A stretch of 64,000 nucleotides of DNA. Origin: Branchiostoma floridae (Eukaryota > Chordata > Leptocardii > Amphioxiformes > Branchiostomatidae). The notes below the pieces were generated by a model. It saw only the letters and a list, made by a program, of their open reading frames with translations, was not told the DNA's origin and searched no databases. The position numbers and the translations under genes are program-made. Each line of letters opens with the position of its first letter. Position 1 is the stretch's first letter. This document shows, piece by piece, positions 22,001 through 28,000 of the stretch. The stretch is taken from assembly GCF_000003815.2 (NCBI RefSeq), contig NC_049979.1, positions 5,290,873 to 5,354,872 of the forward strand, read 5' to 3'.

Positions 22001-25000
22001 GGATCAATTTTGGGATTCTTACCTCAGGAGCAATGTAATCGGGTGTTCCACAAAACGTGGTGGTGAGCTTCCCATTCAGGATGCCCTCTTTACACATACC
22101 GAAGTCAGCAAGTTTTATATGGCCATCGGCATCCAAAAGGATGTTATCCAATTTCAAATCTCTGCAAAAGAGAAAACAAATAAAGTTGCACCACTTGAAT
22201 CTATCAGGAACAAATGGCACATGAGTAATGTCTCAATATGACAACATAATGCAGGGCTCAAAATACCACCTGCATATGCAGGTTAGTGCAGGTGAAATTG
22301 GAGCTGTGCAGATATTTCTGGTGTCTACCTGCACCTAACCTGCACTGGTCCATGTACTGGGTTTTATACATATTAAATGTCCTATGATGTAGGTGTACAT
22401 GAAATGCTATTAGCTGCATTGACTGTTACCATCCAAGTATAGAAGAAAAAATAGCAATGATTCTCGAACAATTTTGGTATGATCCATACTTCCTAAATTC
22501 AGAGTGGTGCAGGTAAAATCTGTTTGGTGCAGGTAATTTTCAATGTTACTTGCACCAGTGCAGGTATGCAGAAAAAAAGTATTTTGAGCCCTGCATCAGG
22601 AACAAATGGCACTTGTACATGAGTAATGTCTCAATATTGACAGCATAACGATAAGACTCCATTAGTGTTGTCACTTCTGATGTTGACCAGTGCCTATAAG
22701 CGTAAACATTCACAGGTGTGCACACATGGTCATAAAGAGCTTTTGTAGTGTGCAGTGCATCTTCAATATATAGAGCACACATATAATCTAGAATATGCAA
22801 GTACAGAAATGGACAGATTGTAAGAAGACTCACAAACTGCATCCATTAGCTGAAGTGTGTTTGCCATAACACATGCATCTGTCAAAGGGCATATGACCAA
22901 TCTTGTTTTAGCCCTTCTTGTTATGTTAATTAGGATGTTAAGTCTTATTCTATACTCCTATTTTGGACTTTGTGTAATAGTCGTTGCCATACATTGTACC
23001 ATGTACAAATCTTGTGCAATAAAGTTCATAATAATAATTAACTGTATATGCATTTAAAGCCATGTTGATTTGATTATATGGAAGACAGGCTCTGGGAACC
23101 CCAAAACTGATGCGAGCACGCAAATAAAAAAAAAACAACTTTGACCCCCCAAAAAGGTTTGCCTTCATTATGAAATATTCATGGTCAGGAAGGTTGAATA
23201 TAATGACTGAACACACAGAATATACTATATACCGAACAACTGATCCTTCTTTTTTGTTCCTTCACATCTTCTAACCTTGGAATATTCTATTACGTTTTAT
23301 GAAACTTGCTGATTTTGAAGCTGCTTTGTACGATATACAGTATGGTTGAAAACTTTTATTTTATTTTTGGAAACGGCCAAAATTGATGCGAACACGGATG
23401 TCATCCTTATAATCAAATCAACAAGGCCTTATGAAAGGAGAATAGATATCAGTGGATGGATATTTCTGTACCAACCTGTAAATGATTCCATGTTCGTGTA
23501 AAAACATCAGAGCCAGGATCACCTCCGCTGAGTAAAATTTAGAACGTGGTTCGTCAAATTTTCTAGCCCGTTGTATCTGGAACATGAGGTCACCTCCGTT
23601 CACATACTCCATCACAAGGAACAGGCGGTCCTGCAAAAAATGAACCATGTGTGATGTGAAACATTTCTGACATTTACCGACAGGGATAAAGGTTGTTTAC
23701 AAACATAATTACTGAAAGCCTGATAACTATAAGAGTATTTCAGAGACCTTCACTTCCAAGCGCACAACCTTTCCAGAATAGTCCAACCCTGCCTGGTCTC
23801 TGTGCTACAGACCTCTCCTATCTACACAAAGTTAGGTTTGGTTTAGTTTGGTATGGTTGATTCTTCCCAAAGCCTGGTTGATTTGTAGAGAATCACCAAG
23901 TCCAGACGGAAGGATTTGCATCATCATACACCGCACCATCTCACATGTGGTGGGTTTTTTAACGTGCATGGGGTGTGGCTCTCCCCACACACGGGACCTC
24001 CATTTAACGTCCTATCTGAGGGACGGCCCTAGCCAAAGCTAGGTACTCATTTTCACCTGAGTAAAGTGAGGAAAGCCATGTAAAGTGCCTTTCCCAAGGG
24101 CACAAGATCGGTGACACGGCAGGATTCGGACTCGAGATCTCTCAGTCCCGAGCCAAACACACTGTTGCTGCGCCACACGGTCTCACGCGTCAGGCAACCC
24201 AACAATGCTGACAGGAGGCCTTACCTTAGTCTGAAAGCAGGCGTGCAGTGCAACCCAACATTGCTGACAGGACTCCTTACCTTAGTCTGAAAGCAGGCGT
24301 GCAGTGCAACCCAACAATACTGACAGGAGGCCTTACCTTAGTCTGAAAGTAGGCGTGCAGTGCAGCACAACAATGCTGACAGGACTCCTTACCTTAGTCT
24401 GAAAGCAGGCGTGCAGTGCAGCACAACAATGCTGACAGGACTCCTTACCTTAGTCTGAAAGCAGGCGTGCAGTGCAACCCAACATTGCTGACAGGAGGCC
24501 TTACCTTAGTCTGAAAGCAGGCGTGCAGTGCAACCCAACAATGCTGACAGGAGGCCTTACCTTCGTCTGAAAGCAGGCGTGCAGTGCAGCACAACAATGC
24601 TGACAGGACTCCTCACCTTAGTCTGAAAGCAGGCGTGCAGTGCAACCCAACAATGCTGACAGGACTCCTTACCTTAGTCTGGAAGCAGGCGTGCAGTGCA
24701 ACACAACAATGCTGACAGGACTCCTTACCTTAGTCTGAAAGCAGGCGTGCAGCGCAACCCAACAATGCTGACAGGAGGCCTTACCTTAGTCTGAAAGCAG
24801 GCGTGCAGTGCAGCACAACAATGCTGACAGGACTCCTTACCTTAGTCTGGAAGCAGGCGTGCAGTGCGGTGAGGAAGGGGTGTTTCCTGGACAGCAGCAG
24901 CACCCTCTTCTCCGTCATGGTGCAGTCCACATCGTCGTCCTGGATGATCACGTCCTTCTTCAGCACTTTGATGGCGTACACATCATCAGACTCCTTCAGC

Positions 25001-28000
25001 TCTGCCAGCATCACCTGCAGATTAATATAAACATCATCAGCATCACCTGCAGATTAATACAAACATCATCAGCATCACCTGCAGATTAATATAAACATAA
25101 TCAGCATCACCTGCAGATTAATACAAACATCATCAGCATCACCTGCAGATTAATACAAACATCATCAGACTCCTTCAGCTCTGCCAGCATCACCTGCAGA
25201 TTAATATAAACACCATCAGCATCACCTGCAGATTAATACAAACATCATCAGCATCACCTGCAGATTAATACAAACATCATCAGCATCACCTGCAGATTAA
25301 TACAAACATCATCAGCATCACCTGCAGATTAATATAAACATCATCAGACTCCTTCAGCTCTGCCAGCATTACCTGCAGATTAAAAAAAACTAACAGGTTA
25401 AAACTGGCAAGGTAGAAAATTGACAAGGTGGTACTGAGATCGAGCTCTCATGCTTTTGTCAGCAGGGCTCGAAATACTGGGTGCATGTGCACCCTGGTGC
25501 ACCCAAAATTGGAACTGTCCACTAAATTTTTTTCTATGGGTGCACCGGTGCACAACTGCTGAAATACTGGTATAACAATTATGTCATCTGTGTCCAACAC
25601 TGGAAAAGTGTGCAAAATCATCTTTAAATTTCCGAGAACTGTCTCACAAAGTCAGCTCTTGGAATACATTAAATGCTGAAATGGTGTAACAAACACTCCA
25701 GATAACCAACCCGTTAAATGGACAGAGATAGCTGTACCTTGCCAAAGCTGCCCTTTCCTAGCACCTTGATGAAGTTGAAGTCGTCCAGTTTCAATCTGCG
25801 ATGTCTGATGTCCGGGGCCCCAGACAGGTCGGGTGAGGTCATGGTGCTGTTACTGGATGTGGAGCTGGCATTCTCCTCCACATCCTGTGGCTTCTCATTC
25901 AGGTCTGTGCATGGCTTCTCTTTGTCTGAAGTTGAGAAAAACAACATATGTAGCTGAATGAAGAGACTCTTTTTACACAACAATTGCTTCATTCTCACCA
26001 ACGTTTCGGTGACCGTCTGTCACCTTCTTAAGGACAGGTCTTGTATTGCAGGACAGGTGACGCTGCTCACGGTTCAGACGTGATCACAAAACGTGAAGTA
26101 TTCACATACATTTGTATGTACAGACGGCTTTATGCAAATAATTGTCCTGCAGTACAATGTAAACCAGTCTGAATTGCACTGAAGAAGGTGACAGACTATC
26201 ACCAAAACGTTGGTGAGAATAAGGCAATGGTTGTGCAAAAAGAGTCTCTATATTCAGTGATGTACCAAGCTGATGAAACTATTCTCAAACATGTGTAGCT
26301 CATTGCTAGTCTCTCTTTCATTAGAAGATCCGATCCGACACACTGTACATATCCAACTGACAATGATAAGTACGTTGTTACATCTTAGGCAGCATTCTTC
26401 AGTACAATACTCAAGACAAAAAAGAGAGCAGTCATTGATTCATTGGTCCCCTTCTTGGATATCTAACGGATCTTGATAAAACTATTATATACCAGCATCT
26501 AAATATAGTGTTATCACATACAAATATATGAAGGAGCTGCAATGTATGGGAATACACAAGAAGCCAGTTAAGAAGCCGTGCACAACGGATAACTGCACAC
26601 TTCTGTTAATTGCAGGGAATCCCAAAGTCCCGTAGTGATGCAGTCCAGCTGAACAACTTTGTTTTGTTGCACCATCTGGATAATTGCACAAAATGTGCTG
26701 GCAAATGGGGAGTGCAATTAAACGGCTTCTACTGTATATATTATTCGGGTTCCCTTACCATCTATTCTGGGTGCAGAGTGTGGTCTCTTGTCCTGTTTCT
26801 CATTGTCGCCCTTTCCTTCCAGCTCTGCCTTCTTGGCTGTGTCGTGAGTATTGGAGGTCTGTACCACACAAGCATTTCTTTGTCAAGAGTGGTAGTATCT
26901 TTGAATATGACCAAATTTTCTAGATTTATAAAACATGTTTATTTGCAAGATCATGCCTGAAGGCTTATTGCATAAGGACTAAAAGAAGTAATCAGTATGG
27001 TACATAAAACTAATGTCTAATCAACTATATGATACACAGAATGCTATTTAACAAAAGTTTATAAAACACTTTGCAAATTTCATACAATGAACACAGGATG
27101 GTACACCTATGTACGAAACCTTGTACCAAAGTTGCAGCTTGTTAGATATGTAAGATGCTTGGTTAAAATAATTCCACAAGTAGTTAGAAAGAGCGTCATG
27201 CTTCACCTCAAAAGAGAATGACAGTTTGGAATGCTTGAATGACACCATGCCCAATGGTGAAGAGTGCAAAGAGCCATGCCAAACTGATAAAGGCTGCTTC
27301 ATCAAAGAAAAAAATAATAGGACAAGACAGCAAATGACTTCTTTTTTTTCTGTTGGGGAGGGGGCATTCTTCTATATATTCTAATACAAATACATCTTTC
27401 TACCAAAAAAAGTCAGTTCTGTTTCAAGCAGCCATCTTGCCCTTTTTCTTTCCTGTCGGATACAGCCTCCATTTTTGTGTTTTTTTTCCATGGACCTACC
27501 TTTAATTTCTTATCTTGAACCCATGAAGCTGGGACTGTTTGTTTCAAAGATTTCCACAGATCTCTTGCCTTGTTTACCTGATGGGGTCTGCCCTGATGAT
27601 AGGCCATGGAGCCGCCCTTCTTTTTTCTCGGCGTTAACTTGTCCCCGGTGAGGCCGAGCTCGGCCAGTTTCAGAGCGATCTCTTTGGGGTTGATGCCACA
27701 GTTGTGCGCCACGTTCTTCTGACATCTCATGTGCACGTTCATCTTGCAAGCTGTGGCAACAACGATTAAAACGTTCCCACTACACATGATAGGTTATAAG
27801 CTCGACTACAACATTGTAAAAGTTCAATATTTAAACCTGCTAATACTAGTGGGTAAATATACCATTTCTAAATATAGATATGGAAAGTAAAAAGGAAACA
27901 TTACTCTGCTTATTGAGCAAGAGTGTGATCTGAGAGGTTTATTGCAGATAGGGCAAATATCTCATCATCATCATCATCATCACTCGGGGCGTGCTCTAGC

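Follow-up and report, generated by a model that had tools for sequence, protein, structure and literature searches.

Splice-site arrays on both sides of one kinase exon

How can an exon be joined correctly when its own acceptor stands before it in eleven copies and its own donor behind it in twelve? The question arises in a protein kinase C (PKC) gene of the lancelet Branchiostoma floridae, which lies on the minus strand of the stretch analysed here (C1:5290873-5354872, 64,000 nucleotides, called the window below; positions are counted from its first letter). Exon 10 of this gene is bracketed by two tandem arrays that are members of a known lancelet kind, the mirages, and not a new class. We propose, with a probability of about one in two, that the exon-10 mirages are tolerated and do not form a switch: their units meet at AG|GT (the bar marks the splice junction), which would let mistakenly used outer sites be erased by a second splice. 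The tandem arrays of the window were located with Tandem Repeats Finder (TRF), and the elements around exon 10 are, in the direction of transcription:

25738..25925, minus strand: PKC exon 9, ending GGCAAG|GTACAG
24980..25390, minus strand: acceptor-side mirage array, a 32/179-bp array in TRF, with 11 CTGCAG|GT sites
24841..25014, minus strand: PKC exon 10, 174 nt, VMLAELK...CFQTK
24187..24867, minus strand: donor-side mirage array found by TRF, 56 bp x 12, each unit with ~26 nt of exon end and 30 nt of intron start
23476..23630, minus strand: PKC exon 11, ending in ...GIIYR, acceptor TTTGCAG|GACCGC; TRF lists no array

Among solved structures, PKC eta is the best match of the joined kinase exons, at full length (E 5.6e-134), and the kinase reading of these predicted exons is secure. 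The VYAIK lysine inside exon 10 is presumably the ATP-binding lysine. The introns that flank the exon are about 0.7 and 1.2 kb long.

On the donor side all 12 units are 56 bp long, free of insertions and deletions, and each keeps the GT, within a motif that reads AAG|GTAAGG in 11 units and AAG|GTGAGG in one and that in its core fits the donor consensus equally well in all 12. The unit sequences are less uniform: there are ten distinct ones, with 2 identical pairs among 66, a mean pairwise identity of 0.937 and 11 variable columns out of 56. On the acceptor side the 11 CTGCAG sites, with the AG intact in every one, follow the order L(51)-4S(32)-L(51)-4S(32)-exon, built of units of 51 and 32 bp, and the longest T run belongs to the outermost site. 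All 21 extra sites (11 donors and 10 acceptors) carry AG|GT. Two side observations concern the donor array. In 10 of its 12 units CTTTCAG stands just 5′ of ACTAAG|GT, which makes a 6-nt in-frame exon (Thr-Lys) between splice-like signals possible. Its outer end is adjoined by a dispersed repeat (23880-24190) with matches at other loci, which we take, from its look, to be a tRNA-derived SINE.

Among the 132 possible acceptor-donor pairs, the innermost is the only one that leaves the reading open and in frame. From any of the 10 outer acceptors the reading runs for 11 or 28 codons before it meets a stop. With the next donor the frame shifts and the stop lies in exon 11, at residue 82 of the joined reading; with any of the ten farther donors it lies within the array, at residue 77. 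Predicted use of any outer site would thus bring in the premature stop expected of regulated unproductive splicing. The exon measures 174 nt with the innermost pair and up to 1,148 nt with outer ones. Most of what the preliminary description of this locus had read from the sequence was borne out: the PKC identity of the exon, the tandem arrays on both of its sides, the L/4S order of the acceptors, the GT or AG kept at all 23 sites, the innermost pair as the sole source of the kinase frame, and the stops that follow from the next acceptor and the next donor. Its "12 exact 56-bp units" are exact in length and not in sequence.

A second splice could undo every outer choice

Since each unit sits between AG|GT signals, any outer choice at exon 10 can be undone on paper: for all 132 pairs a second GT...AG splice gives the exact canonical mRNA. 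Joining exon 9 to an outer acceptor creates the sequence AAG|GTGATG (AAG|GTAATG at the outermost site), which matches 7 of the 9 positions of the 5′ splice consensus MAG|GTRAGT, one more than the 6 matched by the native donor of exon 9. AAG|GTGATG would in this way serve as acceptor and then at once as a usable donor, as a recursive splice site does.

The course of events that we propose is the following. A tandem duplication over the boundary would have started the arrays, and unequal exchange would have enlarged them. The innermost pair would be preferred through the normal exon length of 174 nt. Should the outermost acceptor, with its best T run, be used all the same, AAG|GTAATG or AAG|GTGATG would form a new 5′ site from which the rest of the array could be removed by recursive splicing; at the other end of the exon, the correcting splice would take as its acceptor the AAG at the close of a retained donor unit. 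Arrays would therefore be better tolerated at boundaries with AG|GT, and an extra copy that has lost AG|GT would be weeded out. In short, we suggest that recursive or dual-specific splicing erases mistakes at AG|GT arrays, which are tolerated, and keep their AG|GT, for that reason.

Arrays crowd particular genes

The PKC gene carries a third mirage array at another exon:

21252..21639, minus strand: mirage array at the acceptor of exon 13, in units of 141 bp; the start of the exon accompanies each of 3 extra acceptors
21011..21199, minus strand: PKC exon 13, ending in ...ILKA; the real acceptor, CCCAG|ATC, lies immediately within the array; donor AAAGCT|GTGAGT

The junction of this array is AG|AT. 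In all three PKC arrays a tandem unit spans an exon-intron boundary, which is the mark of a mirage. Neither the exon-13 array nor the link to known lancelet mirages appeared in the preliminary description, whose account was incomplete in both respects.

We further surveyed 299,595 letters of the same genome, in partly overlapping tiles that cover mainly myosin genes. One locus, C10:21143001-21173000 (tiles L052, L051 and L053), is a class-I myosin gene, with myosin Ib, Ic and Ie as the best matches of its joined exons E1-E3 and E12-E13. TRF finds ten boundary-spanning arrays in it:

E1: acceptor and donor
E2: acceptor
E3, E4, E8 and E12: donors
E13: acceptor and donor
E14: donor

A single splice site was found there in up to 22 copies, one array holding 22 acceptors of the P-loop exon and another 22 donors. 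As at PKC exon 10, arrays stand on either side of E1 and of E13. Seemingly older, decayed copies lie near E5 and E12. In the other myosin tiles there is a single clear boundary array, a donor mirage of two copies in another myosin gene (L048, 4526-4639), with the junction TG|GT. A 43-bp array of 6.9 copies in a myosin gene on C18 (L010, 75-361) has donor-like sites in an unclear exon context. Large clusters of tandem myosin genes, presumably of the muscle type, occupy C9:6370000-6610000 and C5:18085000-18190000, and the five tiles read from them (L039-L043) show no clear mirage.

Of the 12 arrays in the C10 myosin gene 10 lie across a boundary, and of the 5 in the PKC gene 3 do, against about 1.4 and 0.4 under random placement (P 1e-8 and 0.004). 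Their density is 10 per about 32 boundaries in the C10 myosin gene and 1 per 135 filtered boundaries in the other myosin tiles. In these tests the boundary numbers (32 and 28) were estimated by hand, periods below 20 bp were left out, and at E1, E12 and E13 two TRF rows that overlapped or adjoined were counted as one array. Mirages thus cluster by gene. The preliminary description had held that two independent arrays meeting at one exon are hard to explain by simple slippage. That difficulty is weakened: with arrays crowding particular genes and two myosin exons doubly bracketed, no special cause is required for two arrays to meet at one exon.

A genome-wide DNA search with the exon-10 region, in which simple repeats and very common words are skipped, gave two matches, its own locus and a homologous PKC-like exon on C13 with 74% identity. 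The full region was found at one genomic place, and no second haplotype of the arrays turned up in this search. The C13 exon, at TTCTAG|GTGATG, has the same start as exon 10 and ends at the donor ATG|GTACGG, and the 961 bp read around it hold no tandem repeats. The arrays are thus not kept in the one paralogue exon compared. Since that exon lacks them, they are probably younger than the split of the paralogues; from this comparison, their origin in the PKC gene after the split is most likely, with loss from the C13 copy as the alternative.

AG|GT is kept in the copies

The junction statistics cover 13 arrays, from the PKC and the class-I myosin gene. The consensus junction is AG|GT in 11 of them, where all four bases are kept in 85 of 87 extra copies. 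Variable columns at these junctions number 2, against 10.3 expected from random windows of four columns (P 0.001, or 0.002 with unit edges excluded), and over all 13 arrays the four junction columns are likewise less variable than the rest of the units (P 0.0055). Position by position (E14 set aside here and in the control below), the arrays vary at -2, -1, +1 and +2 in 1/12, 1/11, 0/11 and 0/11 cases, and at the other positions within 14 bases in 0/7 to 6/12. As a control, AG and GT pairs at other places of the units were counted, and 497 of 570 copies have them intact. Of the six losses of an array's own splice dinucleotide, five fall in myosin E14, whose real donor is GG|GTGGGT and which has lost the GT in 5 of 20 copies.

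Mirage boundaries also tend to have a particular sequence. Among acceptors, 4 of 5 at mirages open with GT, against 0 of 14 others in the same two genes (Fisher P 0.0013; P 0.005 when E12, possibly an old mirage, is counted as ordinary) and 4 of 81 filtered acceptors from the myosin tiles. Seven of nine mirage donors end in AG, against 10 of 54 filtered donors from those tiles (P 0.0009). The background from the same two genes consists of located splice sites, and so omits the acceptors of E10 and E12 and the donors of E5, E7 and E9; E5, one of its 14 acceptors, may carry an old decayed copy. The tile background was filtered down to 54 donors and 81 acceptors from 184 and 212 candidates that included false ones inside exons, and its boundaries are interdependent, paralogues sharing intron positions.

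Known mirages and comparable systems

Mirages have been described as minisatellite-like tandem copies of exon-intron boundaries in the lancelet genes for Adh3, the globins BflGb6 and BflGb9, troponin C and PGBD5 (PMC3087553, PMC3902484), with AG or GT signals in many, not all, of the repeats. The arrays at PKC exon 10 resemble them in that a boundary, be it donor or acceptor, is copied in tandem, that many of the units carry splice signals and that the functional copy is the one at the exon. Unlike what the parts of the published accounts at hand describe, one exon here has arrays at both of its ends, one gene holds ten of them, and AG|GT is retained from unit to unit. New here are the clustering by gene, AG|GT at 21 of 21 extra exon-10 sites and its retention in 85 of 87 copies. 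The literature that we searched, with subscription journals mostly outside its scope, yielded no paper that joins mirages with erasure through AG|GT.

A parallel comes from human tandem-repeat genes, which show an 8.4-fold enrichment of introns that are spliced at dual-specific AG|GT sites and in which such expansions were suggested to be less deleterious since splicing can remove them (PMC10809524). In the UBC arrays, as at exon 10 (21 of 21 extra sites), every tandem unit has AG|GT, and any GT joined to any later AG removes whole units (PMC10809524). The UBC units are coding, a multiple of 3 in length, and seen in both uses in RNA (PMC10809524); those of exon 10 are half intron, 56, 32 or 51 bp long, and known from sequence alone. 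By analogy, the exon-10 arrays would work like the UBC type without being a member of it, and the human data agree in kind with erasure.

Two further systems share parts of the scheme. At Drosophila ratchet points and at recursively spliced exons with a donor at their 5′ end, an acceptor followed by GT recreates a 5′ site (PMC8605326); ratchet points are reported from long introns (PMC8605326), whereas exon 10 lies between introns of some 0.7 and 1.2 kb, with 10 such sites in a row. Introns have also arisen where an AGGT segment was duplicated in tandem (Rogers 1989; Hellsten 2011; via PMC4974935), the duplicated AGGT supplying the GT and the AG of a removable segment. In the classic form this begins inside an exon and yields a new intron, whereas at exon 10 an existing boundary was multiplied and no intron position is new; in a potato case the duplication also crosses a boundary (PMC4974935).

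Weighing the explanations

That the exon-10 mirages are tolerated through erasure is, as said, about an even proposition. The wider statement, that lancelet mirages are self-erasing, AG|GT boundaries multiplying dozens-fold as removable GT...AG units in which selection keeps AG|GT, is more tentative and falls short of an even chance. Several points weigh against erasure. Outer-site use and second splices are predictions from the DNA sequence itself. Single units (32-56 bp) are probably too short for introns, and a correction would need several at once. The exon-13 array lies, by its sequence, beyond the reach of the proposed route and yet persists, and mirages that lack AG|GT exist at myosin E14 (GG|GT) and in L048 (TG|GT) as well. 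The statistics have a basis of two genes, and the C10 myosin gene was picked after its arrays had been seen, which weakens the P values for boundary bias and clustering. Over all 13 arrays, retention of the array's own splice dinucleotide (104/110) gives a weak signal (P 0.036, or 0.056 with unit edges excluded). Compared with donors of the same two genes, mirage donors show no enrichment of AG (7/9 vs 4/7, P 0.37; with PKC exon 13 left out the background is 4/6, P 0.54). Selection on the exon-10 donors alone was considered and set aside as uninformative: that array by itself carries no conservation signal, a random adjacent pair of its columns (11 of 56 variable) being invariant with a chance of 0.62.

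The chief rival, which we regard as a real possibility at less than even odds, holds that mirages are neutral: minisatellites straddle boundaries by chance, exon definition and proximity choose the innermost sites, and AG|GT is there by chance or was inherited from the boundary. This is close to one of the two alternatives offered in the preliminary description, decoys silenced by position, which is compatible with everything seen here and with published data: results for Adh3 and the globins, reverse transcription PCR among them, suggest that regular splicing is undisturbed by mirages (PMC3087553). Inheritance is favoured by the array-free C13 paralogue exon, which shares the AG|GTGATG acceptor, and chance both by the donor columns of exon 10, which alone fit it, and by the arrays without AG|GT. 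What neutrality leaves unaccounted for is the low variability of the junction columns, in the 11 AG|GT arrays as in all 13, and the excess of arrays that straddle boundaries, the latter measured with hand-estimated exon counts.

Targeted duplication would explain that excess otherwise. If breaks or R-loops at boundaries directed DNA duplication to splice sites in genes transcribed in the germline, boundary bias and clustering would follow and tolerance would have no part; the 10 arrays at about 32 myosin boundaries, against 1 per 135 in the other tiles, speak for it. We think this unlikely, as a process of this kind leaves the kept AG|GT unexplained, and the other myosins may be free of arrays only through stronger selection.

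The second alternative of the preliminary description was a dose-like switch, in which regulated use of outer sites would give unproductive mRNA and so set the kinase level. Its premise stands: every uncorrected outer site brings a premature stop, and the core donor motif is equally good in all 12 units. The choice between silencing and a switch overlooked, however, that a second splice through AG|GT could erase the error. The switch itself found no support, with the C13 paralogue exon free of arrays and the ten arrays of the myosin gene fitting a mutational habit of the gene better than regulation of a kinase, and we consider it very improbable. Least likely of all is that the copy number, or even the arrays, came from misassembly or merged haplotypes: the copy number at exon 10 does refer, if this is the published assembly, to one reference haplotype reduced from about tenfold shotgun reads (PMC7269912), and one globin mirage was wrongly assembled in an older draft genome (PMC3087553), but ten distinct unit sequences without insertions or deletions, clear boundaries, similar arrays elsewhere in the genome and a locus found once all speak against it.

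Other features of the window

The PKC exons were mapped from exon 9 onward, together with one C2-type exon upstream of the kinase exons:

38061..38471, minus strand: open reading frame with a putative C2-type exon, by sequence pattern
22023..22161, minus strand: PKC exon 12; TRF lists no array
19807..19953, minus strand: PKC exon 14; TRF lists no array
18937..19083, minus strand: last PKC exon found, C-terminal tail and stop

We take the reading frame at 38061..38471 to be the predicted exon for the N-terminal C2 domain of a PKC of the novel type (epsilon/eta). Downstream of the PKC stop, away from known exon boundaries, a tandem array of 95-100 bp in 2.9 copies lies at 17451-17726. Coding pieces of a Paired-like homeobox, presumably Otx-like, were seen near the PKC gene at 57000-63100 on the minus strand. 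TRF lists no array in the window past 55097, these pieces included.

What the arrays mean for lancelet genes

With one of 12 donors of the same core and one of 11 near-identical acceptors giving the kinase frame, exon 10 is a clean natural experiment on splice-site choice, and the clustering of arrays by gene offers a handle on why some genes grow them. If AG|GT makes the copies erasable, mirages would link recursive splicing, dual-specific splice sites and intron gain by duplication. Exon 10, with its 21 erasable copies, would then offer a natural setting in which to study recursive and dual-specific splicing and the birth of introns.

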